Source of the DNA: an uncultured Bacteroidales bacterium | GTDB taxonomy: Bacteria > Bacteroidota > Bacteroidia > Bacteroidales > Paludibacteraceae | Direction of reading: 5' to 3' | Length of the DNA stretch: 64,000 nt | NCBI GenBank assembly: GCA_902780495.1 | Contig: CACZFM010000003.1 | Span: 1-64,000 of the forward strand | In this document: positions 33,946 to 63,918 of the stretch, in pieces | Position numbering within the stretch: position 1 is the first letter of the stretch | Layout of the letters: each line of letters begins with the position of its first letter | Made by a program: the position numbers and the translations under genes | Notes under the pieces: generated by a model | Databases searched by the model: none | The model's input: only the letters and a program-made list of their open reading frames with translations | Told to the model about the DNA's origin: nothing

Positions 33946-34030
33946 TTGCATATTCGGATTATTTGCATTACTTTTGCAGAAAATTTTCAATGAATATTAT
34001 AGATTGTATCTAAAATTTTCAATGAATATT
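33946..34030 (+). promoter_or_regulatory. promoter and paired direct repeats before the ATPase gene
   Basis: TTGC (33946-33949) and TACTTTTGCA (33969-33978) form the promoter. Directly after it AAAATTTTCAATGAATATT occurs twice (33980-33998 and 34012-34030), 32 bases apart, that is three helical turns. This is a plausible operator pair in the untranslated leader. Confidence 0.6.
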
Positions 34031-34065
34031 TGCAATACTATTTAAAGAATTTAAGTATTTTTTGT

Positions 34066-35205
34066 ATGTTTAAACGAATTTTATCGGTCAACGAGATCAT
34101 GGAGGAAATGAGCATTTTTCTCTTTGGAGCACGTCAAACAGGCAAGTCAACCTATTTGAAAAACGCCTTTCCTAATGCGATGTATATTGATCTTTTGGAT
34201 GCCTCTGTTCGGAGAATTTACAAGAATCAACCAAGTGTGCTATATGACCAGTTAGCAGAAAGTAACATCTCAACCGTCATTATTGATGAAATAACGGAGG
34301 TTCCGGACTTACTCAATGAGGTTCATCGTTTGATTTTCAAAACCGATATACGTTTTGTCATTTGCGCAAGCAGTGCTCGCAAGCTACGTCGAAAAGGAGC
34401 AAACACGTTAGGTGGTCGGGCATTTCCTTATTACCTACATCCTTTGGTAAGCGCAGAGATTCCTGAGTTGGACATTGACCGGGCAATTAATGTCGGCATG
34501 ATTCCAACCCACTATTTATCTAAACGTCCTCAGATATTATTGTCCGCATACATCGATGTATATCTGCAGCAAGAGATCAAAGCGGAAGCAATTGTTCGCA
34601 ATATTGATGCTTTCGAGCGTTTTATGGAAGTAGCGGCTCTTACGGATGGAGAAATAGTCAATTATTCCAATATAGCAAGTGATTGCGGCGTTAAATCAAA
34701 TACCATCAAAGAATACTTCTCCATATTGGAGGATACGTTGGTCGGCTATATGATACCTGCTTATCATAAATCTCTAAAACGCAAAGAAGTACAAGCGCCT
34801 AAATTCTACTATTTCGATGTCGGTATCGCCAATTACTTGCTGCATAGAAAAGATCTGCAACGCGGTACTCCCGAATATGGACATGCATTTGAACATTTTG
34901 TAATTCAGGAAATTATTGCATATCTTGGCTACAAGAACAGCGATGAAAAATTGTCATATTGGCATACATATACAGGAAATGAAGTAGATGCAATTATTGG
35001 AAACCGTGTCGCCATTGAGATTAAATCTGCTGATATGGTGCAACCCAAGCATCTCAAAGGTTTACGGGCCTTTGCAGAAGAATACCCTAATTTTGACCGG
35101 ATGATTGTTTCGTGGGACCCCATTAACCGCAAGACTGAAGATGGGATACGGATAATCTTTATCCGCGATTTTTTACAAGAGTTATGGTCGGGTAAACTTT
35201 TCTGA
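34066..35205 (+). CDS. AAA-type ATPase with C-terminal DUF4143 nuclease-like domain
   Basis: The 379-residue protein has a Walker A loop GARQTGKST at 21-29 and Walker B VIIDEITEVPD around residue 75 (AAA_14). A winged-helix linker (IASDCGVKSNTIKEYFSILE) follows, then a DUF4143 end with a PD-(D/E)xK core: EVDAIIGNRVAIEIKSADMV. The family is widespread and largely uncharacterised; it is linked to STAND-like or toxin-like roles without firm proof. It is the only plus-strand gene between 28.8 and 57 kb and is more A/T-rich than its neighbours, so it was probably acquired separately. The ATG at 34066 gives a normal family start. Confidence 0.85.
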   Translation: MFKRILSVNEIMEEMSIFLFGARQTGKSTYLKNAFPNAMYIDLLDASVRRIYKNQPSVLYDQLAESNISTVIIDEITEVPDLLNEVHRLIFKTDIRFVICASSARKLRRKGANTLGGRAFPYYLHPLVSAEIPELDIDRAINVGMIPTHYLSKRPQILLSAYIDVYLQQEIKAEAIVRNIDAFERFMEVAALTDGEIVNYSNIASDCGVKSNTIKEYFSILEDTLVGYMIPAYHKSLKRKEVQAPKFYYFDVGIANYLLHRKDLQRGTPEYGHAFEHFVIQEIIAYLGYKNSDEKLSYWHTYTGNEVDAIIGNRVAIEIKSADMVQPKHLKGLRAFAEEYPNFDRMIVSWDPINRKTEDGIRIIFIRDFLQELWSGKLF

Positions 35206-35211
35206 TTTTTG

Positions 35212-35553
35212 TTACGAAAAGATATTGTGCCTTGTTTTGGACGTTTTATTGTAGTTCATTAACAAGTCTTTGATACGCTTGCAATCGGACTTGTCCAAGC
35301 AGCGCGCAGTGAGTTTGCCTCCCACGGCTTGGATAGTGATGTCCGCTCCGATGAGATGCTGATCGATCACTACCCTACGGATAAACCGGAAAGCCAGCGT
35401 ATCCTCGTCCACACCGATGAGGATGCGGTTTCGCTTACTGACCGTGATGGTTTGTTCGTCGGTATCGACTTCAATATTCCACGGCGTGAGTATATCCGCC
35501 GCATGTCCATTAGCCAGCAATGAAGCTTCAGAGGAAGAAAAATGGTGTCTCAT
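35212..35553 (-). CDS. hypothetical protein, 113 aa, last gene of the TerB-channel operon
   Basis: The small soluble protein has a beta-rich centre (PWNIEVDTDEQTITVSKRNR, DEDTLAFRFIRRVVIDQ, GADITIQAVGG) and ends with a helix (KSDCKRIKDLLMNYNK). This pattern of strands with a final helix resembles bacterial PH-like domains, which is only a suggestion. It begins ten bases downstream of the YkvA-like gene and ends seven bases from the convergent ATPase gene. No signal peptide is present. Confidence 0.65.
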   Translation of the reverse strand: MRHHFSSSEASLLANGHAADILTPWNIEVDTDEQTITVSKRNRILIGVDEDTLAFRFIRRVVIDQHLIGADITIQAVGGKLTARCLDKSDCKRIKDLLMNYNKTSKTRHNIFS

Positions 35554-35563
35554 AGAGTTATGA

Positions 35564-36085
35564 TTATTTATTTATATATTTGTTAGCCCTTTGAATGATT
35601 TTAGTCACAGAATCCAATGCCTTTTCTTCAAACTCTCCAAAGATCTTTCGTAATTGATCTTTCGATACATTTTGGATATCTTCAGTAATACACGATGCAA
35701 GGGCAGTAACAGCAGCAGTTAATGCAGCCACATCATCTGCATAGCCCACTCCGGCGATAGCATCGGGTAGAAGATCAAGGGGAAGAATAAAATAACCGAG
35801 TGTACCAATTATCATAGCCTTTTCTTTCAAGTTTATATCTCCTGATTTTAGCAGATTAAACAACAAAAAGACAGGATAAAGAACAGTTGCTCCAATAGAT
35901 TTTCCGAATTTCCCGATTTTCTGCAATAACTCACTTTCCGAGAAATATTTCTCGTATATGTTTAAATTGGCAGTAATATCTTCCAACTTCACCTCAGAAA
36001 TAGAGGTCTTTATTTTATTTGCGCCATCTGATACCTTTTGTGAGGCGACAGCAGCCGTTTGTTTAATAGAATCAAGAAGTCCCAT
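35564..36085 (-). CDS. YkvA-like DUF1232 membrane-associated protein
   Basis: The 173-residue protein has the DUF1232 signature YFILPLDLLPDAIAGVGYADD at about residues 97-117, next to a hydrophobic stretch (GATVLYPVFLLFNLL). The N-terminal ~50 residues are helical and Ser/Lys-rich. The family has no assigned reaction; some members are tied to membrane or stress functions. It begins 5 bases after the channel gene, so the two are tightly coupled, which suggests it serves the channel. Confidence 0.8.
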   Translation of the reverse strand: MGLLDSIKQTAAVASQKVSDGANKIKTSISEVKLEDITANLNIYEKYFSESELLQKIGKFGKSIGATVLYPVFLLFNLLKSGDINLKEKAMIIGTLGYFILPLDLLPDAIAGVGYADDVAALTAAVTALASCITEDIQNVSKDQLRKIFGEFEEKALDSVTKIIQRANKYINK

Positions 36086-36090
36086 AGTAT

Positions 36091-37785
36091 TTAATTTTTA
36101 TATCCTTCGTACCCAATTGCCTTGATTTTGAGTTCAGGGTCAACAGGATTGTCAGTATGGTTGATATTTCGATTGATAGCGTGTGCAAGGGATTGAGCAA
36201 TTTGAATAGCACGTGCATCTCGGACGGTGACACTCCAAGCTACGCGAAGAGCGACGGCGTTCACCTTATGCTCCAGATGACGAGCGAAATAGGCAGAATT
36301 GGCATTTGCGTGATAGCGTTGACGGTCTGCCGAAAGAGAATAATCTCTCTCTAACAATGCTGCAAAGTCCTTATATAAAGCATCAAAAGAAGGAATATCA
36401 TTGAGCGTTATATTCGGGTCATCATACGTCTCATCACCTTTCTTGGCTCCGTATGTAAAATGGAACTGCGTTGGATAAGCCGGTTCGCTTCCTCCGCTGG
36501 CAGCAAGGATGGAGAATACCCATTTGTCTTCGCTATCCACCAGCCGGTCGAGATCTGTCATGCATTCCTCACGACCGATTGTACCATCGTTTTTGTAGAG
36601 ATAGAAAGAGTTATAGGGGCGTGTCTCCCCCACCTCGCGGCTTACATAATTGAAGCCGCCTATTTTAGCCAAATAATATGCCCACCATCCGATAATCGGG
36701 TCCACAATATTGCTGGGTGAGAAAATGGTCACTTTGGAGTGACGGTCGATACACTGGCCATAGACGGTGTTTACCGGAAAATGCTCTACTGCCAACAAGT
36801 CTGTAACTCTCTCTTCTGGCGTTGCCGTGCTTGACAGATTGATCAATCGGAATTTGTCGGAGATAGCAACTGCATCTAAGATCTCGTCTTCTTTGAGTCC
36901 CAAACGAGCTTGAATCTCCACGATAGACACGTAGCGCGGAACAATCTGAAAGCCAGTAGGACGGTCGAGTTTACGTTCAAAAGCCAAGTGCAGACGTTCT
37001 GCCCAACCTTCGGATTTCTCTTTGCGCTCATCTTTCTCCATTACTTCGGAGAAAGCGGAGCCGATCAATCCTGCCGGCACGGCAAAGATCGCAATACCGA
37101 GTACGCCAATAATACATGCGATAATACGGCCAGTAATCGTAATTGGCGGAGTATCAGCAAAGCCTCCCGGGTCGCCGATATACTGCGCAAACGCCCAAAG
37201 GACAGATGTCCAGCCGTTGTGATAAACCTCCGGCTGCGCCTCATGCTCAACGAAGAAAAGGATGAAAGAGAGAATGAGCGTGATGATGGTCAGGAACTGA
37301 ACGGACACCCACATCTCATCTTTCTTTGCACGCAGCGCACGTGAGAGCACATTGAAGGCCTTCAAGTAGCGGAATACGCGCATCAGGCGGGCGATACGGA
37401 GTGCTTTAAGAGCCACGTATGGTACCGGCATAAAGAAATGCAGGTAGAAGGGGTACGTGGAGAGGATGTCTATCAACCCGTAGAACGAGAAACAGTAACG
37501 TACTCTACCAAAAAATCCTTTATATTTGTCGTCGATAAGGTCGGCACACCAGATACGAAGAGAGACTTCAATAGTAAAGAAAGCTGTAGTGAAATAATCC
37601 ACTACTTTCAACCACAATCCGTATTTCTCGACGATTCCGTCGTAGGTAGAGAGGAAAACCTCTACCGTAGAAAGGATAATCAGACCTATAATGGTATAAT
37701 CGACGTAATTATGCCATTGTTTGGTGTGCAGATCATCATCAAAGACGCGCGCCAACTCGCGTTTGAATGCTTGTATTTTAGTCAT
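36091..37785 (-). CDS. voltage-gated-type ion channel with unusual pore and a large novel C-terminal domain
   Basis: The 564-residue protein has six transmembrane segments: S1 29-46, S2 62-80, S3 100-117, S4 126-152 with regularly spaced arginines (ALRIARLMRVFRYLKAF), S5 160-180 and S6 221-247. The pore loop at 191-212 reads FAQYIGDPGGFAD where a K+ channel has TVGYGD. Selectivity therefore cannot be assumed, although the YIGD core keeps part of the pattern. Residues 250-564 are a large cytosolic domain that is neither RCK nor cyclic-nucleotide binding as far as I can see (motifs WWAYYLAKIGGFNYVSREVG, FHFTYGAKKGDETYDDPN). It may be a sensor that gates the pore. It is the largest gene of the operon and is coupled to a YkvA-like gene. 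Confidence 0.8.
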   Translation of the reverse strand: MTKIQAFKRELARVFDDDLHTKQWHNYVDYTIIGLIILSTVEVFLSTYDGIVEKYGLWLKVVDYFTTAFFTIEVSLRIWCADLIDDKYKGFFGRVRYCFSFYGLIDILSTYPFYLHFFMPVPYVALKALRIARLMRVFRYLKAFNVLSRALRAKKDEMWVSVQFLTIITLILSFILFFVEHEAQPEVYHNGWTSVLWAFAQYIGDPGGFADTPPITITGRIIACIIGVLGIAIFAVPAGLIGSAFSEVMEKDERKEKSEGWAERLHLAFERKLDRPTGFQIVPRYVSIVEIQARLGLKEDEILDAVAISDKFRLINLSSTATPEERVTDLLAVEHFPVNTVYGQCIDRHSKVTIFSPSNIVDPIIGWWAYYLAKIGGFNYVSREVGETRPYNSFYLYKNDGTIGREECMTDLDRLVDSEDKWVFSILAASGGSEPAYPTQFHFTYGAKKGDETYDDPNITLNDIPSFDALYKDFAALLERDYSLSADRQRYHANANSAYFARHLEHKVNAVALRVAWSVTVRDARAIQIAQSLAHAINRNINHTDNPVDPELKIKAIGYEGYKN

Positions 37786-37803
37786 TGTTCAGTTGTTTTG
37801 TGA

Positions 37804-37829
37804 GCAGGGGAACGATCAAACTCCCCTGC
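37804..37829. repeat. intergenic hairpin of the GCAGG...CCTGC set
   Basis: GCAGGGGA pairs with TCCCCTGC across ten bases. The same sequence, including the loop CGATCAAACTCCCCTGCCCTG, recurs at 38724-38749. No T-run follows in either direction, so this is an mRNA-processing or stability element rather than a terminator. Confidence 0.6.
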
Positions 37830-37850
37830 CCTGTTAATGCCTAATAGGCA

Positions 37851-38096
37851 CTATGATTTTTCGCGCTTAAGTGATTCACGAGCGCTTTCAATCTGGCGTT
37901 TCAGTGAATCGATAGCACTGTCATGGCGTGCAGCGGCGTCGATTTTAGATTTGCGATAAGATGCCTTGCTCGACGGCGAGGAGGTTCCCTTAATTAATGA
38001 AGCATAGCGTTCGTTGTCACGTTTCTTGGCTTCTTTTTCTCTGTCAAGACTTGCACGCAAGTCAATGATTCTCTTGCGATAATACTCTTTACTCAT
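37851..38096 (-). CDS. small coiled-coil protein, 81 aa
   Basis: The product is almost entirely helical and very charged: EYYRKRIIDLRASLDREKEA, then a Ser/Lys-rich turn (GTSSPSSKASYRKSKID), then IDSLKRQIESARESLKREKS. It looks like an antiparallel coiled-coil hairpin. It resembles short WXG-like or tape-measure-like helices only in shape; I do not recognise it. It lies between the GIY-YIG-like gene (20-base gap) and the channel gene in the operon. Confidence 0.65.
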   Translation of the reverse strand: MSKEYYRKRIIDLRASLDREKEAKKRDNERYASLIKGTSSPSSKASYRKSKIDAAARHDSAIDSLKRQIESARESLKREKS

Positions 38097-38116
38097 AATG
38101 ATTCATTTAGATTTTG

Positions 38117-38707
38117 TTATTTCAGTTTTCTTTTGTCCATTACATATTCCCGCCATTGATCGCCGAGAGCGGGATTACCATCTACATTTAGCGGATACTT
38201 ACCGGACATGATACATATTGACTCAATACATTCCACTAATTTGCCTTCGTTTTCATCAAATGCACGCCACTCAAAGTAACAGTCCTTGAGAATATCTGTA
38301 ATCTGTTGCTCTTTGGATTTATCATATTTGCTGTCAATACACAATCCATAAAGAGTGTGGCGAATCGTTGAAATATGTACATTTCCTTTGCTATGTTGGC
38401 GAAAACGATGGTAGCCATTATTGCTCTTGCCAAAATATAGAGCGTAATACGTTTTTCCATCTATTTCACGTGAAGCAACTTGTTTCATTAACTCCGCTAA
38501 ATCCTTGTACTTTTTGCTTTGCTCTTTAAGTACATGCATAACAACAGAGTTCTCCTCAAACCACCACCGATAAACAATAGGCATGTGGGATAGATCCTTA
38601 GTTGTAATGCTGTCCACTTTATGGATTAGCATCTCACTATAGACTCTATCTACGACGTTTCTGCAACTCTCAGCCAAAAGGCTGTAATATGATTGTTCGT
38701 TCTTCAT
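38117..38707 (-). CDS. GIY-YIG nuclease-fold protein, 196 aa
   Basis: The N-terminal 80 residues are helical. Residues 87-180 look like a GIY-YIG domain: YYALYFGKSNNGYHRFRQH carries the two tyrosine/glycine strands and the catalytic-type arginine (101 or 103), LVECIESICI carries a glutamate (159 or 162), and the end KYPLNVDGNP supplies the usual PLN. Such domains cut DNA in repair, homing and restriction. All key residues seem present, so activity is plausible. The call rests on motif shape, not a search. It follows a duplicated-motif gene after a 60-base gap with a hairpin. Confidence 0.6.
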   Translation of the reverse strand: MKNEQSYYSLLAESCRNVVDRVYSEMLIHKVDSITTKDLSHMPIVYRWWFEENSVVMHVLKEQSKKYKDLAELMKQVASREIDGKTYYALYFGKSNNGYHRFRQHSKGNVHISTIRHTLYGLCIDSKYDKSKEQQITDILKDCYFEWRAFDENEGKLVECIESICIMSGKYPLNVDGNPALGDQWREYVMDKRKLK

Positions 38708-38723
38708 GTTTTTCTTTTTTTGT

Positions 38724-38749
38724 AAGCAGAGGAGCGATCAAACTCCCCT
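38724..38749. repeat. intergenic hairpin, near-copy of 37804-37829
   Basis: GCAGAGGAG pairs with CTCCCCTGC with one mismatch. The loop and right arm are identical to the copy at 37.8 kb, which shows duplication of the spacer with the operon's genes. Confidence 0.6.
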
Positions 38750-38767
38750 GCCCTGTTGGACTACGAT

Positions 38768-39085
38768 TTATGCGCGACCTGCAGCGGAAATAGTACCGCT
38801 GTTGTCTGCCAACTCAGTGTCCTTTGCATTAGCAACCTGAACGCCAATACCGTACATCTCAGCAATCTTCTTCTCGAAGTTACCTACCTGCATGTTACCA
38901 ACGATCTTCAGTTCGCCACCGGCTTTACCCTCTGCGCGGATAGATGCCAACGTAGCATCGTCATCAGCAAATGCGCCCTTGCAAGTAGCGCTCTTGTAAA
39001 CGCGGAGAGATGCTCCAAATGCTTTCTTGAAATCAGCCTTGAGGGTCTTAACCTTCATGTTACCCTTTAATGCAATTTCTGCCAT
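38768..39085 (-). CDS. duplicated-motif protein A, 105 aa
   Basis: The protein consists of two copies of a ~50-residue unit: GNMKVKTLKADFKKAFGASL then RVYKSA ... DDATLASIR, and IVGNMQVGNFEKKIAEMYGI then GVQVANAKDTELADNSGTIS. The pattern is short strand, helix with xxFGxx, strand, then DxxTLASIR, which could form a ubiquitin-like or other small alpha/beta fold. The same unit, twice each, makes up the proteins at 39809-40201 and 40231-40578. I know no assigned function. It is a middle gene of the operon. Confidence 0.75.
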   Translation of the reverse strand: MAEIALKGNMKVKTLKADFKKAFGASLRVYKSATCKGAFADDDATLASIRAEGKAGGELKIVGNMQVGNFEKKIAEMYGIGVQVANAKDTELADNSGTISAAGRA

Positions 39086-39105
39086 AATTGTAAGAATTTA
39101 AAGTT

Positions 39106-39148
39106 AATAAATGATCATTTATTGCCTGCAACATAAAGGACTGCAGGC
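39106..39148. repeat. 18-bp palindrome and hairpin in an operon gap
   Basis: AATAAATGATCATTTATT (39106-39123) is a perfect palindrome. It is followed by GCCTGCA/TGCAGGC arms (39124-39130 with 39142-39148). The pair fills the gap between the PD-(D/E)xK-like and duplicated-motif genes. Confidence 0.55.
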
Positions 39149-39185
39149 TTGTCCTATTATTTGCATTCGTCTTTTTACACGTACA

Positions 39186-39746
39186 TTATATATATATTGT
39201 TAGTTCCACATGTTCAGACGGAGAATATAATTTAACATGGTCGGTCTTTTTGATGATTTTTGCAACGCATTCATCTATATGCTCGCTGCAATCCATGACT
39301 ACCATGAACTTGTAGTACGGGGCAACAGAAGGGATGTCGCTTTTCTTTTTGCCATTCAATAGGTGGTCTATATCTTCTAAAATACCCTCTTCTTGTGCCG
39401 CTCCAAAAGAAGTGACATTGACTGGAATATTGCATTTGACCTCAGCAATAATCTTCTTATCTTTACCGTCATACTGGACATCAAAACCATTGGCATTAGC
39501 GTGCTGGGAATCAACATCTTTCAGTATTTGTTCTCTTTCTGATTTTGTTAAGAAGCCGTCGGCATATAATTTCTCTATAAAATCCCGGGTCGTGCGCAAA
39601 GTAATGATATTATTAATACAACTGAGCAACTTCTTGAGCTCAATCAAATCTCGCCCTGATAGTTTGGAATACAGGTCTTTTACTCCGAATTTATCGAAGA
39701 AGTTGTTGAAGTTTTGCTTCAAATCATTGTCTCTGCTATATGCCAT
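39186..39746 (-). CDS. PD-(D/E)xK-like nuclease-fold protein, 186 aa
   Basis: The N-terminal 80 residues are helical (NFNNFFDKFGVKDLYSKLSG, LLSCINNIITLRTTRDFIEK). From residue 85 a strand pair carries FDVQYDGKDKKIIAEVKCNI, with Asp89 and Glu102-x-Lys104 in the spacing of a PD-(D/E)xK core. The C-terminal strand-helix-strand (YKFMVVMDCSEHID) would complete the fold. Restriction-like and repair nucleases share this fold, but it is also found in inactive proteins. The ATG at 39746 is preferred; the longer start lies in the hairpin gap. The order with two duplicated-motif genes on one side and one on the other is noteworthy. Confidence 0.6.
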   Translation of the reverse strand: MAYSRDNDLKQNFNNFFDKFGVKDLYSKLSGRDLIELKKLLSCINNIITLRTTRDFIEKLYADGFLTKSEREQILKDVDSQHANANGFDVQYDGKDKKIIAEVKCNIPVNVTSFGAAQEEGILEDIDHLLNGKKKSDIPSVAPYYKFMVVMDCSEHIDECVAKIIKKTDHVKLYSPSEHVELTIYI

Positions 39747-39771
39747 ATTGATTAGATTTTGATACTTGTAA

Positions 39772-39797
39772 GCAGGCGGACAGCCAAGCCCACCTGC
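39772..39797. repeat. intergenic hairpin of the GCAGG...CCTGC set
   Basis: GCAGGCGG pairs with CCACCTGC with one mismatch, loop of ten bases. It shares the arms of the hairpins at 31.9, 37.8 and 38.7 kb but not their loop. Confidence 0.5.
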
Positions 39798-39808
39798 CTG
39801 AATAGAGG

Positions 39809-40201
39809 TTACTTCCATTCTCCTTTCTTGCAGCCATTCTTTTCACATTCTGCATTAAAAGAAGCCAAAGTCTTTTCATCATCCTTACCAGATGTGTAGT
39901 ATCGTTTACCTTCTTTTGTTGTATAGCATACTTGTGCATACAAACCAAATGCGGTATCGAACTCTTGCTCTAGACTTTTGATTTTTTTGTTTCCGCTGAT
40001 AGAAATTGTACCTCCTGAATCTCCACGACGAACAGAAGCTAATGTTTTATCATTATCAATATTTGTAATGGTTCCACCTTTAGCTACTGTCTCGCGCATG
40101 TAGCTGTAGTATATGCCTAAGCGAAGATAAGGAAATTGCTCATTAAATTCCTTGCGCAGCGTACCAATTTTCTTGTTGCCACTAACTGAAATTGTTGCCA
40201 T
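39809..40201 (-). CDS. duplicated-motif protein B, 130 aa
   Basis: Two units are seen: SVSGNKKIGTLRKEFNEQFP ... DNDKTLASVR and SISGNKKIKSLEQEFDTAFG ... DDEKTLASF. These are the clearest copies of the ~50-residue unit shared with the proteins at 38768-39085 and 40231-40578. Insertions between the strands make this the longest member. The C-terminus is Cys/Lys-rich (ECEKNGCKKGEWK). Soluble, cytoplasmic, no catalytic pattern seen; a binding or scaffold role is likely. Confidence 0.75.
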   Translation of the reverse strand: MATISVSGNKKIGTLRKEFNEQFPYLRLGIYYSYMRETVAKGGTITNIDNDKTLASVRRGDSGGTISISGNKKIKSLEQEFDTAFGLYAQVCYTTKEGKRYYTSGKDDEKTLASFNAECEKNGCKKGEWK

Positions 40202-40230
40202 AATAATATAAATTAAAGTGGTTATACAAT

Positions 40231-40578
40231 TTATTTAGCGTATTTAGCTTTCAGCGACTCCATGTCTGCTTTGGTAGCCTGCTTGGGGATATCGGGCAGT
40301 TTAGCCAAAGTCATCTGATCAAGAGCGAGAACCCAGTCGTCAGCAGAAGCCACTTGTACTTTGAGACCGAAATTGTCAAGCAAATCTTTCTCAAAGCCAC
40401 CGACAGTCTTGCTGCCACGGCACTCGTACGAACCGGTAGCCGTAGCTATATCTGCTACTTTCTCAGCACCGGTCAGACGTTTGTTGCCCTGATAAACACG
40501 AAGAGTTCCGCCAAATTCCTCTTTGAATCGGCTGCACAAGGTTGACACCAACAGGCGTCCATCTATTTTAATTTCCAT
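40231..40578 (-). CDS. duplicated-motif protein C, 115 aa
   Basis: The first unit is IDGRLLVSTLCSRFKEEFGG then TLRVYQGNKRLTGAEKVADI. The second is CRGSKTVGGFEKDLLDNFGL then KVQVASADDWVLALDQMTLA. A Lys-rich helix (KADMESLKAKYAK) ends the protein. It is the most diverged of the three duplicated-motif proteins. It lies 29 bases after the TerB-like gene and 29 bases before protein B. Confidence 0.75.
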   Translation of the reverse strand: MEIKIDGRLLVSTLCSRFKEEFGGTLRVYQGNKRLTGAEKVADIATATGSYECRGSKTVGGFEKDLLDNFGLKVQVASADDWVLALDQMTLAKLPDIPKQATKADMESLKAKYAK

Positions 40579-40607
40579 AATACCAAATTATTAAAAGTTA
40601 AACATTA

Positions 40608-41024
40608 TTAATCAGCCATATTGATAGCCAGATCCGGCTCGGTCTTCACCATGTCGGCAAGCATGAGAATAGCATCCTCATCCTCAATACCGAGTGCTTC
40701 GGCGATAATAAGCAGGTTGCTAACCTCTGCACGGCTCAACTCGCTGTCGGCAAGAAGCATCTGCATAGCAGCTTCGAATACGATACCGATTTCCTCGTCA
40801 TCCACAGCTTCTGCTGCATCTTTCAACACAGCATTTGCCTGATTCTCGGAAAGGCCGTTCAAGCCCTTGACACATTTATTGACAGCCCCTTTGAACTTAG
40901 CTTCGTCCAGTTCGAGAGCCTCTGCGATTTCTTCTACGGTAATTTCCTCTGCGGGATCATATACACCGTCTGCCCAGATAGCAGCTGCAATGATAGCAGC
41001 AATATTTTCAAGACTTGTTTTCAT
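40608..41024 (-). CDS. TerB-like helical protein, 138 aa
   Basis: The all-helical acidic protein has the TerB pattern of two metal-binding-like halves: AAIIAAAIWADGVYDPAEE near the start and MLLADSELSRAEVSNLLIIA near the end, followed by EALGIEDEDAILMLADMV. TerB belongs to the tellurite-resistance Ter family, which is widely linked with membrane stress, phage inhibition and colicin resistance. In many genomes TerB domains accompany membrane proteins and nucleases, as they do here. No TerC, TerD or TerZ gene is present, so this is not a classical ter operon. Confidence 0.7.
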   Translation of the reverse strand: MKTSLENIAAIIAAAIWADGVYDPAEEITVEEIAEALELDEAKFKGAVNKCVKGLNGLSENQANAVLKDAAEAVDDEEIGIVFEAAMQMLLADSELSRAEVSNLLIIAEALGIEDEDAILMLADMVKTEPDLAINMAD

Positions 41025-41033
41025 AATTCCTCC

Positions 41034-41171
41034 TTATTTGAATAAGCGTTTAATACGGTTGATGAGACTACCTTGTGCTTTGCGGGCTTTCGCCATGCGT
41101 GCGCAAATCTCCTTACCTTCTTTGGTACGTTTGTCGACTGTTCCGTCGGCTTTTTTCTTTACTGTTGCCAT
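41034..41171 (-). CDS. small basic protein 1, 45 aa
   Basis: The product starts MATVKKKADGTVDKRTKEGK and continues EICARMAKARKAQGSLINRI, ending KRLFK. It is strongly basic. It is a paralogue of the next gene, sharing ADGTVDKRTKEGKxICARMAKAR. It might bind nucleic acid or the membrane surface. It lies nine bases before the TerB-like gene. The reading frame is accepted, despite its size, because the twin gene next to it is conserved at protein level but differs in codons. Confidence 0.7.
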   Translation of the reverse strand: MATVKKKADGTVDKRTKEGKEICARMAKARKAQGSLINRIKRLFK

Positions 41172-41180
41172 AACGATTGA

Positions 41181-41315
41181 TTATTTAGATTTTTTTTGAA
41201 GTTTACGAGCTCTTGCTGCTGCTCGACGTGCCTTTGCCATACGGGCGCAAATAGCTTTACCCTCTTTGGTTCTTTTGTCCACCGTTCCATCGGCGTTTTT
41301 TCTTACACAAGCCAT
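41181..41315 (-). CDS. small basic protein 2, 44 aa
   Basis: It begins MACVRKNADGTVDKRTKEGK, continues AICARMAKARRAAARARKLQ and ends KKSK. It shares about two thirds of its residues with the 45-residue neighbour, and many differences between them are at third codon positions, which supports coding. The C-terminal half is a basic helix. No family is known to me. Confidence 0.7.
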   Translation of the reverse strand: MACVRKNADGTVDKRTKEGKAICARMAKARRAAARARKLQKKSK

Positions 41316-41366
41316 AATTGTGATGTTTTTAGGATTAATAATTAGATTTATAGAGTACTTTGGTAC

Positions 41367-42296
41367 TTATTCCAAAACGATAAACTCAGTACGGCGATTC
41401 TCGGGAGCCATCGGGTCTTCGGTATTCTTCAACTCGGAAGAGCCTTTACCCACTGCCTCCAGACGGGAAGCATCAATACCTTCGTGCTCAATCAAGAATT
41501 CCACGGCTGCTTGTGCACGAGCCTCAGAGAGTTTCTGGTTGAAAGCAGCATCGCCCTCTGCAGAGGTATGACCTTCCAGACGCAGACGGAGTTCCGGATT
41601 CTTCTCCAGAACTTTAGCCAGGTCATGAAGTACAAACTGGGCGCTCTCGCTCAGGTCTGCTTTGCCCTTTACAAACTCAGCAGCGTTGAAGTTCTTCTCA
41701 ATCTCCTCGATTTGCTGGATATAGAGCGTGTCATGCACAACCACTACTTTCTCTACTTCTACAATCTGCGGTTCAGCAGGTTTCTGGCATCCTTTAGCCA
41801 AAAGAAGAATAATCAATATAGCAATAATTGCAAGTGCCGCTAAGCAGATCCACAACCATTTATTGGATTTCTTACCCGGCATAGGCGGTACATAACCATT
41901 CAGGTATTCCAGACGATAACCGCCTTTTGCACCGAAACCTTTATCGGCTGCTTCAAACTTAGCTACCTCGATATCATATTGCTTTGCGTGATTAACGATA
42001 CCCTCGAAATTCTCTTTGGGCCACAACTTAAGCAAAATTAACTGCGTACCATCTTGCAAATGGAGAATTTCGTTTTTCTCCGCAAACCAAAGACCTTGGT
42101 TGCTTTCATTTTTCTTCTTCCACTCTTCGGGAGTGCAGAATAACGATTTCCAGGAACCTCCGTCTTGCAAAGCCAAGGGGAAGGCCTTCTCCAAATCGGC
42201 CTTCGTTGCATGAGGATACATTACTAAATAGGCATTTACAATACCTAATACCGTACGGTTTTGCGCTTTACCGTAAACGCGAACTTTACTTGGCAT
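41367..42296 (-). CDS. inner-membrane-anchored OmpA-domain protein
   Basis: The 309-residue protein has a cytoplasmic N-terminal domain (residues 1-140, VYGKAQNRTVLGIVNAYLVM, WKSLFCTPEEWKKKNESNQG) that I do not recognise, one transmembrane helix (146-167, KWLWICLAALAIIAILIILL), and a periplasmic OmpA C-terminal domain (204-309) with LRLEGHTSAEGDAAFNQKLS and ENRRTEFIV. OmpA domains bind peptidoglycan. The topology is that of a signal bridge from cell wall to cytoplasm, as with MotB or ZorB. It is the first large gene of the operon. The ATG at 42296 is chosen since it begins a regular domain. Confidence 0.85.
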   Translation of the reverse strand: MPSKVRVYGKAQNRTVLGIVNAYLVMYPHATKADLEKAFPLALQDGGSWKSLFCTPEEWKKKNESNQGLWFAEKNEILHLQDGTQLILLKLWPKENFEGIVNHAKQYDIEVAKFEAADKGFGAKGGYRLEYLNGYVPPMPGKKSNKWLWICLAALAIIAILIILLLAKGCQKPAEPQIVEVEKVVVVHDTLYIQQIEEIEKNFNAAEFVKGKADLSESAQFVLHDLAKVLEKNPELRLRLEGHTSAEGDAAFNQKLSEARAQAAVEFLIEHEGIDASRLEAVGKGSSELKNTEDPMAPENRRTEFIVLE

Positions 42297-42327
42297 AATA
42301 ATAAAATTTAAAAGGTTAATATGTTGT

Positions 42328-42489
42328 TTACTTTCGTTTCCTTCTCCCGGTAAGAACAGACAGAACACTCTGCCCTATCTTACGTTCGAGACCTTGTTTG
42401 GTCGTCGGGATGCCTGTTTTGCGAGCGATTTTCGTCTTTAAACCGCTGATTCCAACAGCGCGTTTTAGTGAGAATGACAATCCTTTCAT
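42328..42489 (-). CDS. small basic protein 3, 53 aa
   Basis: MKGLSFSLKRAVGISGLKTK is followed by IARKTGIPTTKQGLERKIGQ and a basic end GRRKRK. The protein is strongly cationic with a possible amphipathic helix. It is unrelated in sequence to the two smaller basic proteins. As the first gene behind the promoter at 42517-42526 it heads the 14-gene operon. The longer open frame up to 42702 runs through the promoter and the ncRNA terminator and is rejected. Confidence 0.6.
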   Translation of the reverse strand: MKGLSFSLKRAVGISGLKTKIARKTGIPTTKQGLERKIGQSVLSVLTGRRKRK

Positions 42490-42516
42490 GTTCGTAATAT
42501 TAATATTTTTTTCGCC

Positions 42517-42526
42517 TGCAAAATTA
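42517..42526 (-). promoter_or_regulatory. promoter of the 14-gene operon
   Basis: TAATTTTGCA on the minus strand, 28 bases before the first ATG. The -33 element is poor (TATATCGCA). It is the only -7 match I found between 35.2 and 42.5 kb in this direction. Confidence 0.6.
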
Positions 42527-42602
42527 CTACTTTTTTGCGATATATTCCTGGTCCTTTTTGGTCCTTTTGCGTTCAGCACTTGCTCATGTCCGTTTTTTGT
42601 AG

Positions 42603-42612
42603 TACTTTTGCA
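42603..42612 (+). promoter_or_regulatory. plus-strand promoter facing the ncRNA
   Basis: TACTTTTGCA with TTGC at 42580-42583 as a weak -33. It points into the ncRNA region and would give an antisense transcript; no gene lies downstream on the plus strand. Confidence 0.5.
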
Positions 42613-42635
42613 CTGCTTTTTGGCAAGTGTCCACG

Positions 42636-42846
42636 CACAAAAAAGCACGAACGGTTCTTGTTCATGCTCTGTGGTCCTAGGAAAACCAGTAAATACCAAC
42701 AAGAAACGCCCGTGCTACGCAAGGACGTTTGCTCGATTTGTTCTTAGGTATTTACACGCGTTGAAATTTCCTAGGTTTCAGAGCCGTGCCGAACAAAAAG
42801 CAAACGCTATCAATCAATATGTCTATGCGCAGGTTTTCACCTTTGC
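42636..42846 (-). ncRNA. strongly folded candidate ncRNA, ~210 nt, with own promoter and terminator
   Basis: From the promoter at 42850-42859 the minus-strand transcript first forms a hairpin AGGT-GAAA-ACCT near 42826-42845. A long interrupted stem follows: CTCTG/CAGAG (42667-42671 with 42779-42783), CCTAGGAAA/TTTCCTAGG (42676-42684 with 42767-42775) and GTAAATACC/GGTATTTAC (42689-42697 with 42747-42755), enclosing AAACG/CGTTT. It ends at an intrinsic terminator, AGCACGAAC/GTTCATGCT (42644-42652 with 42660-42668), with six T. The two perfect 9-bp helices in line are hard to explain by chance. The family is unknown to me; an elongated rod with internal loops is reminiscent of 6S RNA in outline only. 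Confidence 0.6.
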
Positions 42847-42849
42847 GGG

Positions 42850-42883
42850 TGCAAAGGTACGAAAAATATTTGAAATAAACAAA
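42850..42883 (-). promoter_or_regulatory. promoter of the candidate ncRNA
   Basis: TACCTTTGCA (42850-42859) and TTTG (42880-42883) on the minus strand, 20 bases apart, a consensus pair. It starts 50 bases after the kinase gene ends. Confidence 0.75.
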
Positions 42884-42907
42884 TAATTGTTAAATTATTC
42901 GCAAATT

Positions 42908-43939
42908 TTACTCCATTTGCAGGAGTTCATTCATCAAAAGAGTCGTTTTTTGCGTCCAGATATCAAAAATCTGTGCCCTGCGTAGTTCATCATCAGGGTA
43001 TAGGTTCATCAGCGAATCACGGACAATCCATCCGGATTGAATCACTGAAGAAACAGCGATCGAAATACGCGAAGCAGGTGGCAATTCCACTCCTGTGTAC
43101 TCTGCCGGAAGATTATACAAAACGCAGAATGAATCCATAGGCATTTGCTCTGCAGCTGCAGCCGCTTGACGGATCGCCGCATGGTGTTGCGCCAAAGCTG
43201 CATTAACGCTTTCAAACATTTGTTGTTCCTCGCGTTCAGCCGCATAGCGTTCATTATGTGCCGAATAGAAGAACCATACGGAAACTGCTAACAATCCCAA
43301 GGACAGCACGACAGGGAATGTGCGGAGTATTTGACGAGTAATTGCATAGCGGCGCGGATAAATTGTCTCTATAATCTCTTTCGTGCGCGCGTTTTCCTTA
43401 TTTATTTCTTCTTGTGAGGCGAAAACACTATCATCCGTCTCGCTTAAGCCGAAATCAATGAGTTTGACATTGTTGCCATTACGCGTGATGAGAATATTAT
43501 CACCTTTCAGGTCACGATGGGTCAGTTGGTGGGCGTGGAGGTATTCCAATGCTTCTTGCAACTGTTTGACAACGCGTTCTCTGTTTTTTAGGGAAGGCTT
43601 TGTTTGAAGCCAATGAGTAAGTGTTTGACCTTCAATATACTCCTGTACAATACACTCTCCTAACCCACCCACGGGTTCGAGGGAATAGGTAGTAGCTATA
43701 TTGGGATGAGATAACGCAATACCAAATCGAAACTCGCGTTGCTGAATCTGGCGGTATTCTGTGAGCGAACGATGTTCCGGTCGTAAAGCCTTAATCAAGA
43801 ATCTTCTATCGTATCGTACACCGCTGTATATGAGGCAGTTCTTCCGCTCTTGAAGAAGCGTCAGATCAGACCATTCATTATTCCATGTATCAGAAACAAT
43901 GAAGCCGGAAGAACTGGAAGTATCAAAGTTTGCGGACAT
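42908..43939 (-). CDS. membrane-anchored Ser/Thr protein kinase with a shortened C-lobe
   Basis: The 343-residue protein carries a Hanks-type kinase core: Lys50 in RFLIKALRPE, HRDLKGDNIL at 141-150 and IDFGLSE at 161-167. A transmembrane helix at 207-226 (RTFPVVLSLGLLAVSVWFFY) and a periplasmic domain of about 110 residues follow. Only ~40 residues separate DFG from the membrane, so the APE motif, helix F and the rest of the C-lobe are missing, and the glycine-rich loop is degenerate. It may be an atypical kinase or a pseudokinase. Its start overlaps the regulator gene by 17 bases, so the two are coupled. Confidence 0.8.
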   Translation of the reverse strand: MSANFDTSSSSGFIVSDTWNNEWSDLTLLQERKNCLIYSGVRYDRRFLIKALRPEHRSLTEYRQIQQREFRFGIALSHPNIATTYSLEPVGGLGECIVQEYIEGQTLTHWLQTKPSLKNRERVVKQLQEALEYLHAHQLTHRDLKGDNILITRNGNNVKLIDFGLSETDDSVFASQEEINKENARTKEIIETIYPRRYAITRQILRTFPVVLSLGLLAVSVWFFYSAHNERYAAEREEQQMFESVNAALAQHHAAIRQAAAAAEQMPMDSFCVLYNLPAEYTGVELPPASRISIAVSSVIQSGWIVRDSLMNLYPDDELRRAQIFDIWTQKTTLLMNELLQME

Positions 43940-44519
43940 AAGTAAGACCGTGCCGTTTGCCGGCTACGTAGGTTTTAGGGGATTGAGTCTCTTGGACTAA
44001 GTTATCCAGATACATGGGGCGGTTAAACAAGAAACATACTGCATTACACGTATCGCCAACATGCAACTTGCTGTTTTCGGCTTCTACAATCGTAAAACGA
44101 TTACCTCCCTCATAACGCAAGACAGCGCGTCTGTTAGGTCTCCATGCTACTTCCAGACATTCACGTATTTGCAATTCGTCTGCGCGAATGCCTTTACCGG
44201 AGAACGATTCACTCTCTTCTTCATTACGGGTGGAAAGAGATTCTACATATTCTTCCCATGAGGCATATCCCAATAAACGGCAGAGGATACAAAGCGTTGT
44301 ATGACGCGGAGTCTCCGCACCATTTATATACCCCCACAAACGTTTGAGCGTCGTTGGAGACAAGTATTCGTGGCACGTTTCCCAAATACGCATATTAAGC
44401 CAATCGAAATCAGCAGGCGTACGCATTTGTCGTCCCATAAGACGCTCAATATCTGCACGAAGTGATACTATTTCAGGAGATTGTTTTGTCAATAGTATTA
44501 TTTTTTGTGGAGATCTCAT
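43923..44519 (-). CDS. putative regulator of the LSPTTLKRLWGYI family
   Basis: This 198-residue paralogue of the protein at 31279-31875 has YLSPTTLKRLWGYINGAETP, LCRLLGYASWEEYVESL, EVAWRPNRRAVLRYEGGNRF and MYLDNLVQ. The N-terminal half is helical and probably binds DNA or a partner. The C-terminal half is a small beta domain. Its start overlaps the antitoxin-like gene (ATGA) and its end overlaps the kinase gene, so the three proteins are made together. The family appears restricted to Bacteroidota in my experience and has no assigned function. Confidence 0.75.
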   Translation of the reverse strand: MRSPQKIILLTKQSPEIVSLRADIERLMGRQMRTPADFDWLNMRIWETCHEYLSPTTLKRLWGYINGAETPRHTTLCILCRLLGYASWEEYVESLSTRNEEESESFSGKGIRADELQIRECLEVAWRPNRRAVLRYEGGNRFTIVEAENSKLHVGDTCNAVCFLFNRPMYLDNLVQETQSPKTYVAGKRHGLTYVRKL

Positions 44520-44761
44520 ACATGGCCAAGACGTGTTAGCATATCGTCTAACGACTCGTTTGGTAACATCTTATATCTCGGCCCTTTTTCTGCTTCGTCT
44601 AGTCGACGGAAGTATTCCTCTTTTGTCATCAACGTGGGGTCTGTCGTCATCTGTTTAGCCAGACGACGGACATATTTGACAACTTTGTCGTACATTGTAT
44701 CATCCTCTGCTATAAGAGCCAAGTTACGGTATAATTCTGCGTTCAGTTGTAAAGCGGTAAT
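44516..44761 (-). CDS. antitoxin-like small protein, probable ATT start codon
   Basis: The body (MYDKVVKYVRRLAKQMTTDP ... LPNESLDDMLTRLGHV) matches small Bacteroidales proteins that usually begin MTALQLNAELYRxLxxIAED and pair with RelE/ParE-like toxins. That N-terminus is present in frame, but its first codon is ATT (44761-44759), five bases after a perfect AGGAGG. From there it is 81 residues. The first standard alternative start is a TTG at 44722, which would remove the conserved segment. No toxin gene is adjacent; instead the next gene, overlapping by four bases, is the regulator. ATT either serves as a rare start or reflects a G-to-T change in ATG. Confidence 0.65.
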   Translation of the reverse strand: MTALQLNAELYRNLALIAEDDTMYDKVVKYVRRLAKQMTTDPTLMTKEEYFRRLDEAEKGPRYKMLPNESLDDMLTRLGHV

Positions 44762-44766
44762 AATAG

Positions 44767-44795
44767 CCTCCTTTCAACTTTGCGGTGCAAAGTTA
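44767..44795 (-). promoter_or_regulatory. promoter and strong ribosome binding site
   Basis: TAACTTTGCA (44786-44795) is followed 14 bases later by AGGAGG (44772-44767). A perfect Shine-Dalgarno is rare in this genome and decides the ATT start at 44761. Confidence 0.65.
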
Positions 44796-44813
44796 TTGCT
44801 TTTTATTTGGGCC

Positions 44814-44857
44814 AAGGGTATGGTAAGGGTATGCTAAGGGTATGGTGAGGGTATGGT
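44814..44857 (-). repeat. four 11-bp tandem repeats overlapping the -33 region
   Basis: Plus-strand units AAGGGTATGGT, AAGGGTATGCT, AAGGGTATGGT and GAGGGTATGGT adjoin the promoter at 44786-44795. The first unit covers the place of the -33 element. Copy-number change could alter the strength of the kinase operon. Confidence 0.8.
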
Positions 44858-44863
44858 GAGGAA

Positions 44864-45223
44864 CTATGAGGCAAAAGGCCAAAACGGGAGGTGGAAAAAG
44901 CGGTAGGCAAGAAACGTATAAAGCGCCACCAGAAAAATAGCTATAAGCGAAGCACAAAACCCCTTACCGGAAATAAGATGCTTGCGCACAAACACATACC
45001 ACAAGACCGGTATCCCTACCCCCGCAAACGGATAGACAGCCGCAGCCACCGCCACCAACAACGAGGAAAGAAAGACCTCCTCCACCGTGCCACGCACCCA
45101 GACATCGCCATTACGCAACATCCCATACGCCTTCCTGACAGGGAAGACCGCCACTCCCCACAAAAGGAGAGCAGCAGCCAAACGCCATGTCAGTATATAA
45201 GACAGGAAAGCCATACGCCCCAA
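44864..45223 (-). CDS. small membrane protein, 119 aa
   Basis: Four hydrophobic helices are seen (YILTWRLAAALLLWGVAVF, VFLSSLLVAVAAAVYPF, GIPVLWYVFV, ASLIAIFLVALYTFLAYRFF). No family is recognised and no catalytic residues stand out. It starts 15 bases after the M3 peptidase gene and is the last gene of the malQ-ileS run. The ATG at 45223 or one three codons later could be used. Confidence 0.65.
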   Translation of the reverse strand: MGRMAFLSYILTWRLAAALLLWGVAVFPVRKAYGMLRNGDVWVRGTVEEVFLSSLLVAVAAAVYPFAGVGIPVLWYVFVRKHLISGKGFCASLIAIFLVALYTFLAYRFFHLPFWPFAS

Positions 45224-45237
45224 GCGTGCGTTTCCGC

Positions 45238-57238: not shown

Positions 57239-58435
57239 CTAATACAAGAAACCGAAGAGCCAGAGAGGAATTTTGTTGCCTAAAGCATATTCAATACCAT
57301 CGGCTGCAATGAAAGCATTAGGAATATCTGCAATCTGTTTGCCGTCTTTCGATTGACCGCCTACTTCAATAGTATATGTCCGGTCAATCAGGAAATCCCC
57401 CTGTTTAGCATATTCGACCTGGTGATGATAAGCCAATTGGTTCACGAAGAATGTTTCCCTCTCTGTGCCGGTTTCCACATTTGTAAGCGATAAAGCATGC
57501 AATAGATTACAGTTCTCCATATAAATCTTATCCGGCTTCTGCATTCGTTTGAGATTTTGCGCATCGCTATATAATAAATTTAGCAGTTTAGCTCTATTCA
57601 GATGTGCCAGATAAGTGACAATCGTATTCCTATTCAGTTCTGCCGTCTGCGCCATTTTGCTAATATCCACTGTAAACGGGACACCACTGCTGACAACAGA
57701 TAACAAACTACGCAACTTGCGTACATTAGCAATATCAACATTACCCAACTGCGGCAACTCAATCTCCAGAATGAGACTAACAACCTTCTGTACTTGTGTC
57801 AGATAATCTATGTTTTTCTCCAGGAAGAACGGATAATAGCCCTCATGCAAATAACTGTCAAAATATTTCAAAGGTTTGCACACCTTAAGCACATTTTCAG
57901 AAACACTCAAAGGGTGTTGTAAAAGTTCTTCCAAAGAGAGAACAGGGAAAGAAATATCTTCCTTAAAAAGCAGGTATTCGCGGAAGGAAAGCCCCTGCAT
58001 GTTATAACTCACACAGCGGCGCGACAGATCTGCTTCGGCATTGAGGATATTTAATAGCGAAGAGCCTGTAAAGATGATTTGCAAATCAGGAAAACCGTCA
58101 TAGATATTCTTAATTTCCCGACTCCATCCCTCGTATTTATGCACTTCATCAAAACACAAGCATTTACCACCTTTCTTATGGAATTCTTCTGCTAAGTCAA
58201 TCAAACTATGGCGCGAGAAATAGAGATGATCCAAACTGGCATACAAGGCAATCGTCGGATCTGTTCCGTATGTTTCCTTGATATGCTGTAGCAGCATGGT
58301 TGTTTTTCCGACACCACGTGCGCCCCGGATGGCAAGAAGCCTTGCCTCCCAATTAATTTCATCCATTAAACTGCGTTTGTACCGGGATTCAACATGTGAT
58401 AACAAACGCAAATGTTGTGCCTGTAACTGTTCCAT
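57239..58435 (-). CDS. AAA-type ATPase, DUF4143-like, copy 1
   Basis: The 398-residue protein has Walker A GARGVGKTTM (38-47), Walker B CLCFDEVHKYEGW and the AAA_14 segment IIFTGSSLLNI. A linker (FTVDISKMAQTAELNRNTIV) and a C-terminal nuclease-like part with DFLIDRTYTIEVGGQSK follow, ending KIPLWLFGFLY. The last eight residues are the same as in its paralogue at 58693-59898. The EVGGxSK wording replaces the usual ExK of DUF4143. These ATPases are common in Bacteroidales in several copies and have no firm function. It has its own promoter at 58493-58502. Confidence 0.85.
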   Translation of the reverse strand: MEQLQAQHLRLLSHVESRYKRSLMDEINWEARLLAIRGARGVGKTTMLLQHIKETYGTDPTIALYASLDHLYFSRHSLIDLAEEFHKKGGKCLCFDEVHKYEGWSREIKNIYDGFPDLQIIFTGSSLLNILNAEADLSRRCVSYNMQGLSFREYLLFKEDISFPVLSLEELLQHPLSVSENVLKVCKPLKYFDSYLHEGYYPFFLEKNIDYLTQVQKVVSLILEIELPQLGNVDIANVRKLRSLLSVVSSGVPFTVDISKMAQTAELNRNTIVTYLAHLNRAKLLNLLYSDAQNLKRMQKPDKIYMENCNLLHALSLTNVETGTERETFFVNQLAYHHQVEYAKQGDFLIDRTYTIEVGGQSKDGKQIADIPNAFIAADGIEYALGNKIPLWLFGFLY

Positions 58436-63605: not shown

Positions 63606-63918
63606 ATAAAAAACGCGAATAACTGTATGTTATCCGTGCTAGTGGTCGTAGGAAATACCTTGCTGTCAGGTAATATATAGTTACTCGCGCCGTGTATATA
63701 TCCACCAGCACACTAAAGGACATAACCATCCTATAGTGTGGGCGAGTTGTACACTCGTGAGCATCTACATTAACTTGTTTCTGAACAGCTTATGAAAGTT
63801 CCTACGTTTCTAGCATCAGATTACAAGCGTGTAAACGCTTTTTCAATATGTCTGCGCAACGCTTTGCGACTTTTCTCCTATTTTAACGTCTTGGGTTGAC
63901 GAGATTTTTTTCATTTCC
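63606..63918 (-). ncRNA. multi-helix leader RNA ending in an intrinsic-terminator-like hairpin
   Basis: The ~310-base transcript before the caspase operon has at least six helices: CGCAA/TTGCG (63855-63868), AAGCGT/ACGCTT (63825-63840), CGAGT/ACTCG (63743-63757), a 12-base stem with one mismatch (63709-63720 with 63729-63740), an 8-bp long-range pair CGTAGGAA/TTCCTACG (63647-63654 with 63799-63806), and CGCGAATAACT/AGTTACTCGCG (63614-63624 with 63679-63689) followed by six T on the minus strand. The last would stop transcription ~80 bases before the first gene, so this is either an attenuator or an independent ncRNA. No known riboswitch, tmRNA or RNase P core was recognised. Confidence 0.55.

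Follow-up and report, generated by a model that had tools for sequence, protein, structure and literature searches.

A run of 14 minus-strand genes in an uncultured Bacteroidales bacterium (Paludibacteraceae) raises the question of whether an OmpA-type membrane protein, an ion channel, a TerB-like protein, predicted nucleases, and several very small proteins belong to one system, and what such a system would do. The genes lie in a window of 64,000 nt (forward strand, positions 1–64,000 of contig CACZFM010000003.1, assembly GCA_902780495.1) and are labeled g1 to g14 from 42489 down to 35212; all of the open reading frames (ORFs) were confirmed in place. Below, the bridge is g2, g2N is its N-terminal module, the channel is g12, and DUP is the family of three repeat-motif proteins (g6, g7, and g9); C8, C9, C12, C13, C14, and C17 are other families found at related loci. 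Our analysis suggests a modular, co-inherited, envelope-anchored anti-phage defense system of Bacteroidales, in which shared modules would link the bridge and the channel to exchangeable predicted nucleases; we put the probability of this reading at about 0.5. We recognized no description of the operon, or of the leader RNA associated with it, among the papers listed by literature searches.

The sequence-only reading had treated the genes as a single system, and a search for co-occurrence of the channel with repeat and bridge genes bears this out: the families are not usually scattered. Across 250 genomes of the same family, we identified 30 matches to the channel, 48 to the bridge N-module, and 58 to DUP. 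Using a distance limit of 10 kb, 22 of the 30 channels had a DUP gene nearby, 16 had a bridge module, and 23 had one or the other; wherever a channel shared a contig with a partner, the two always fell within this limit (bridge module, 16/16; DUP, 22/22). These data support the conclusion that the gene families form one co-inherited system of Bacteroidales. Chance neighbors without joint function would fit the very variable gene content and the occurrence of some families alone, but fit poorly with the invariably short same-contig distances from channel to partner and with the fusion of modules to each other described below; we regard this explanation as very improbable.

A bridge-module scan of named genomes returned 104 relatives, of which the best 80 were kept; relatives occur in records named Paludibacteraceae, Bacteroidaceae, Rikenellaceae, Alistipes, Muribaculaceae, Prevotella, and Porphyromonas uenonis, among others, and 1845 database proteins match the g2 N-module. 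Family assignment was carried out for 95 non-duplicate loci, many of them truncated by contig ends. Counts for families with members in the window operon are given in Table 1; additionally, the bridge was assigned in 87 loci, a pyroglutamyl-peptidase-like gene in 36, C8 in 30, and a KAP ATPase in 15. The channel, bridge, and DUP were all present in 46 loci; these loci were chosen by bridge, channel, or DUP, so that the counts are not independent evidence.

The small modules recur in new combinations. Fusions were sought with unit profiles, and duplicate contigs were excluded from the counts. On the bridge, we observed the arrangements C8-g2N-OmpA (7 cases), DUP-g2N-OmpA (3), and g2N-OmpA-DUP (1). 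Modules also occur on two proteins of the nuclease family C12 (L087, with C8-C8-DUP and Pfam PDDEXK_4, and L043, with C8), on nine LRR proteins, and on four C14 proteins, and the g3/g4 motif is joined to DUP in two proteins. In KAP ATPases, the C-terminus shares homology with the bridge module (18.6 bits to the hidden Markov model in L121; hhalign E 8.8e-7 over 93 columns, from 3 and 4 sequences). No effector in the window operon itself bears such a module. The presence of g2N, DUP, and C8 on both the bridge and likely effectors leads us to propose an adaptor role, in which the modules may bind each other.

That the three small repeat-motif proteins belong together, as originally noted, was confirmed, and they make up the single DUP family. 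The best Foldseek match of the g9 model is ISG15, with an E of 0.025, and one DUP relative exceeds the PF14560 cut-off. The C-terminal GG is absent from the window DUP proteins, which end in AGRA, YAK, and EWK, and from the 22 of 44 aligned rows listed; E1, E2, and JAB partners had no Pfam match among the 20 window proteins scanned or, for proteins elsewhere, among the 25 of 54 Pfam families listed. Proteins of the g7 type (L050, L054, L069, L104, L123, and others) often carry long basic tails rich in Lys, Ala, Thr, and Pro, some with the g3/g4 motif in front; the look of these tails suggests possible nucleic-acid binding. DUP proteins also occur outside such an operon (L045:8897-9505, L049:8310-11245), in tandem or beside a GIY-YIG-like gene and what reads as a DnaQ-like exonuclease.

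This layout resembles the EAD-based NTP-dependent conflict systems (Kaur et al. 2020, PMC7159879), in which the core and effector proteins encoded by an operon carry copies of the same small non-enzymatic domains. The two share this placement of one small module on core and effectors (here C8, DUP, and g2N on bridge, nuclease-family, LRR, C14, and KAP proteins), swappable effectors, and FGE-type, KAP, and kinase parts at some loci. They differ in that no MoxR, vWA, VMAP, or STAND core was found among the proteins scanned here, and in that the present loci often include an OmpA bridge and a channel; none of the modules DUP, C8, and g2N fits a Pfam family well, and the likeness to EADs is one of module layout.

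Gene content at these loci is exchanged. Nuclease, KAP, and LRR genes are present in some loci and absent in others, and among close relatives g1, the bridge, g11, and the channel are largely kept while the middle of the operon differs. Silent-site difference (pS) to G393 was 0.15 for g9 and 0.21 for g11, as compared with 0.62 for g2 and 0.75 for IleRS; to G334, it was 0.11 for g6 and 0.23 for g3, as compared with 0.72 for the channel and 0.73 for IleRS, single values being noisy for genes this short. Such sharply unequal divergence between blocks of one operon indicates that cassettes recombine, leaving blocks with different recent histories. An inference of transfer from protein identity alone (the g6 protein is 99% identical, in surrounding DNA of 81% identity) was dropped in favor of the silent-site comparison, since purifying selection would be enough to account for it. 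The system also appears to have relocated: the adjacent peptidase M3 gene is conserved, and all six relatives with the system elsewhere hold other genes at that site (7–15 kb fetched). Mobile carriage was considered and rejected: viral contigs held no bridge-module relatives, channel matches on plasmids never reached 80% coverage (the 10 matches listed cover the TM part), and the seven phage records matching g2 did so through the OmpA part only.

A weapon or immunity locus directed against other bacteria rather than phages is another possibility, since swappable nuclease domains recall polymorphic toxins and the loci include LRR and lipoprotein-like genes. However, no toxin-delivery domain appeared among the Pfam families of the window proteins and 56 interior representatives (25 of 54 families listed; no export-signal predictor used), and we consider this explanation improbable.

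Pfam upheld the earlier domain calls for OmpA, Ion_trans, DUF1232/YkvA, TerB, and GIY_YIG_2; in the bridge, PF00691 lies behind a single transmembrane (TM) segment, and the N-module is predicted to be cytosolic. The PD-(D/E)xK-like fold assigned to the 210-amino-acid protein (g8) had no Pfam nuclease match; its D...EVK signature is kept in all six aligned sequences, the window included. Membership in Zorya, of which the gene set had been reminiscent, did not hold: ZorA, ZorC, and ZorD had no match in a PADLOC scan of 10 of the 14 proteins, the remaining four being tiny, and without ZorA this identity was rejected. The ZorB1 model does match g2 (E 2.7e-6), at residues 237–305 only, which is the OmpA part. 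Both have an OmpA-type domain held by a single TM segment, along with DNA-acting proteins in the operon, whereas g2 has a large N-terminal module in place of the short motor tail of ZorB, and a ZorA-like motor was not found.

As for the Ter stress systems, a TerB domain is present in g5 (30.9 bits to PF05099, cut-off 24.4), and none of the 20 window proteins scanned (16 from the system) gave a Pfam match to TerC, TerD, or TerY. An envelope-stress or dormancy module, sensing and repairing envelope or ion imbalance and using its nucleases only for self-limitation, is an alternative to weigh. Its envelope-type parts would be TerB, YkvA, OmpA, the channels, and genes that read as lipoprotein-like (C9, C13, and C17); housekeeping genes flank the window operon, and the leader RNA also precedes non-defense genes. 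In contrast, nuclease swapping, block recombination, and module–effector fusions are typical of conflict systems, and presence is patchy, with a full channel in 26 of the 250 family genomes. We judge the stress module rather unlikely.

The channel combines a six-TM voltage sensor and pore, with a KCNQ-like body, and a C-terminal amidohydrolase-like domain, for which the closest known fold is that of N-formylglutamate amidohydrolase/poly-gamma-glutamate hydrolase. Potassium channels usually have a TVGYG-type selectivity filter; this was not found in the g12 family, where QYIGDPGG stands in its place (QYIGDPG is exact in 53 of 65 sequences). The six-TM voltage-sensor and pore domain is shared with Kv7/KCNQ channels, from which g12 differs at the filter position and in its amidohydrolase-like domain. 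HxxE provides zinc ligands in Zn amidohydrolases, and g12 differs from these enzymes in lacking it: the motif occurs in none of the 65 sequences over the stretch aligned to residues 336–376. With the motif absent, the C-terminal region is probably a binding domain. A gene that its motif suggests to be pyroglutamyl-peptidase-like is a candidate core part: among the 33 loci with both this gene and the channel (L052, L078, L090, L096, L124, L125, and others), 24 have the two no more than 300 bp apart, although it is absent from the window operon; this neighbor is of interest because the C-terminal domain has a glutamyl-amide hydrolase fold. Among L173, L174, L178, and L179, some loci have two or more channel genes side by side and others a second, short channel family, chan2.

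The interval between the kinase gene and g1 holds a stretch conserved in other loci, and this stretch encodes a structured leader RNA. The region 42490–42850 folds better than all 100 shuffles (RNAfold z −4.65). On a 47-pair model built from 10 sequences, 91.1% of cells in a 70-sequence alignment pair (73.2% when shuffled), changes on both sides are found in 41 of the 47 pairs, and the covariation score is 0.563, as compared with 0.222 for shuffled and at most 0.12 for slid alignments; the alignment (window, 7 system loci, and 61 other copies, chosen by hand) is model-fitted and includes training sequences, so that pair counts lean toward structure. A closing helix beyond the model also covaries. 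For a candidate 5' pseudoknot (CGUUUGC/GCAAACG), seven core pairs are compatible in 96–100% of the 70 sequences; since the 5' strand hardly varies, covariation cannot prove it. Rfam 15 (4227 models) gave no match to E 0.1 in window positions 34800–45300, and in 14 other copies the leader itself remained unmatched to E 0.5. A weak second match to the model at 63609–63849 (minus strand; 31.6 bits, E 0.0095) is probably due to chance.

Of 26 system loci in which the leader was located and counted, 24 have it no more than 600 bp from the first system gene, mostly with the kinase or helix-turn-helix (HTH) gene before it; in L168, outside this count, it abuts a C9 gene. Its distribution extends well beyond the system, to 168 of the 250 family genomes (E ≤0.001) and 26 of 149 genomes sampled from the order (E ≤1e-6). 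For comparison we used 94 other copies, namely 101 listed rows minus 7 minus-strand rows close to contig ends; left out of the 101 rows were eight in known or apparent system copies (G000:C3, G297, G301, G346, G320, G393, G391, and G285) and all rows below that of G281 except G000:C1. At least two of the 94 (L235, L236) turned out to be system-like. Behind the leader in both lies a gene of 512–513 amino acids (2804–4345 in L235), the L235 copy of which resembles prokaryotic viperin (pVip) models (E 4.3e-15). On contigs of G079, G016, and G147, several leader copies fall within a few hundred bases of the contig start, which suggests adjacent repeats or rearranging regions.

A terminator hairpin closes the leader, with a T run at the RNA end in 83 of the 94 copies, and of the 93 copies followed by a gene (one lacked any), 88 have the first gene on their own strand, at a median gap of 67 bp. 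A -7 box is found within 100 bp upstream in 54 of 88 copies, as compared with 104 of 1880 control 100-bp windows, and between the terminator and the gene in only 5 of 77 other copies; given this rarity, read-through seems to be needed for most of the genes downstream. The layout is that of an attenuator, with a promoter before the RNA and a terminator before the gene, and we infer that the leader may act as one. Promoter, structured RNA, terminator, and same-strand gene are shared with known attenuator and riboswitch leaders; the differences are several copies per genome before unrelated genes, many of them for restriction-modification, and the absence of an Rfam match. The RNA might instead be a separate small RNA, such as an RNA antitoxin or a guide-like partner of a protein. 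The window does have a second -7 box after the terminator, and RNA antitoxins beside defense genes are described, for example RCd22 of AbiF (PMC12373285). The scarcity of such boxes in other copies relative to those upstream of the RNA, and the many kinds of downstream gene, speak against this alternative, which we consider unlikely.

Restriction-modification genes are enriched among the genes following the leader. We compared first genes (ORFs of at least 60 amino acids) with 113 control ORFs of at least 100 amino acids, the first 88 of which were used for PADLOC. A methylase-type [NDS]PP[YFW] motif was present in 26 of 88 first genes and 2 of 113 controls (p 6.8e-9). At E ≤1e-10, the 88 first genes matched 269 PADLOC families and the 88 controls 50, figures that count families rather than genes and that the greater length of the test proteins (38638 vs. 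27696 residues per 88) favors somewhat. Among the 25 of 269 families listed, mad2 was the largest at 16, followed by methylases of types I, II, and III with up to 11, 10, and 8 members; among the 25 of 50 listed for controls, no family exceeded 2. Signal-like starts were found in 20 of 88 first genes and 18 of 113 controls, and many small secreted or unknown proteins, by reading, also follow the leader. The proposal that restriction-modification genes in general carry the leader was rejected, as discussed below.

The unit is larger than first described. The 14 genes are real, but the unit begins earlier, with the HTH and kinase genes (42908–44519) and the leader RNA (42639–42820); these two genes are neighbors in 40 of the 42 loci having both, and on this basis are counted as part of the unit. 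The kinase match to PF00069 ends at profile position 147 of 263, followed by a TM segment recognized by reading. Spacing between genes had been given as 5–100 bases; the upper end stands, while the lower end is −10, reflecting one overlap. The claim of only one visible promoter (42517–42526) was wrong, as a full promoter also lies at 42852–42883, ahead of the structured RNA. Bacteroides-type promoters have the consensus TTTG-N20-TAnnTTTG (-33/-7). Genes for IleRS, peptidase M3, an AsmA-like protein, and a topoisomerase are among the flanking genes scanned. The window also contains two AAA_14/DUF4143 ATPase genes, at 34030–35205 (plus strand) and 57239–58435 (minus strand); the former adjoins the operon on the opposite strand and matches the PADLOC candidate PDC-S01.

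Table 1. Features of the operon and its upstream region in the window. Fractions are loci with the family among the 95 non-duplicate loci.
Feature	Position	Strand	Evidence
HTH-type regulator gene, 198 amino acids	43923..44519	-	48/95; no Pfam match, named by reading the sequence
Membrane protein kinase gene, 343 amino acids	42908..43939	-	PF00069 E 1.9e-21; 46/95
Promoter P1, TTTG-N20-TACCTTTG	42852..42883	-	Exact match to Bacteroides-type -33/-7 pattern
Structured leader RNA, terminator hairpin and U run at end	42639..42820	-	R1 model match 198 bits (training sequence)
Second -7 box TAATTTTG, the promoter of the sequence-only reading	42519..42526	-	Follows the terminator
g1, basic protein, 53 amino acids	42328..42489	-	42/95
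g2, envelope bridge: VRVYGK N-module (predicted cytosolic), one TM segment, OmpA domain	41367..42296	-	PF00691 E 4e-18
g3, basic KRTKEGK protein, 44 amino acids	41181..41315	-	g3/g4 family 55/95
g4, g3 paralogue, 45 amino acids	41034..41171	-	
g5, TerB-like protein	40608..41024	-	PF05099 E 3.6e-7, 30.9 bits (cut-off 24.4); 52/95
g6, DUP repeat-motif protein	40231..40578	-	DUP family 80/95
g7, DUP repeat-motif protein	39809..40201	-	
g8, predicted PD-(D/E)xK nuclease, 210 amino acids	39186..39818	-	D...EVKC kept in 6/6 aligned; 5/95
g9, possibly ubiquitin-like DUP protein with two beta-alpha-beta repeats	38768..39085	-	Model pLDDT 85
g10, predicted GIY-YIG nuclease	38117..38707	-	PF20815 (GIY_YIG_2) E 1.2e-13; 8/95
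g11, conserved small protein, 81 amino acids	37851..38096	-	61/95
g12, Kv-type channel with C-terminal amidohydrolase-like domain	36091..37785	-	Ion_trans E 4.6e-21; 57/95
g13, YkvA/DUF1232 membrane protein	35564..36085	-	PF06803 E 2.3e-13; 7/95
g14, 113-amino-acid protein without Pfam family	35212..35553	-	7/95

Some observations weigh against the linkage of the families and against a general place for the leader. Standing apart from partners were 7 of the 30 channels, 27 of the 48 bridge-module matches (which include weak and partial ones), and 14 of the 58 DUP matches. In a scan of 89 of 102 loci and the window, for which RNA-model E-values are rough, the leader was detected in 28 of the 89 system loci and in only 27 of 86 distinct loci; a diverged type in L056, L059, and L086 was found by nhmmer only. 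Finally, the leader was present in none of the 30 best-scoring N6_Mtase loci, some of which had less than 1.5 kb upstream owing to contig ends, and in none of 40 control loci; it marks a subset of restriction-modification genes.

Taken together, the restriction-modification company of the leader, the swapping of effectors, and the module fusions make anti-phage defense the best explanation. The original idea of an envelope sensor tied to a nuclease or channel effector likewise appears more probable given these fusions and a leader shared with restriction-modification genes. A broader possibility is an immune regulon, in which a new class of attenuator RNA would precede many unrelated defense operons, restriction-modification included, with read-through as the switch and the present system as its most elaborate member. 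We hold this idea tentatively, well short of even odds, and slightly lowered our estimate because the leader was detected in only about a third of system loci.

Under the defense interpretation, the attenuator RNA would hold the operon low until read-through. On its cytosolic side, the predicted wall-anchored bridge would display small adaptor domains, which would recruit various effectors, the exchangeable predicted nucleases among them; an ion channel with what is predicted to be a sensor domain would stand alongside. Signs of infection in the envelope or cytosol may be detected by the kinase, the OmpA bridge, and the amidohydrolase-like domain of the channel; nucleases bound to adaptors would then cut DNA, the channel would open, and infection would stop, possibly at the cost of the cell. 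If this is correct, Bacteroidales would possess a new defense system with a wall-to-cytosol bridge and a channel joining a new filter to a degraded-enzyme sensor, together with possibly ubiquitin-like adaptor domains of prokaryotic origin. Through the leader RNA, the control of some restriction-modification and other genes in gut Bacteroidales would become accessible from a single point.

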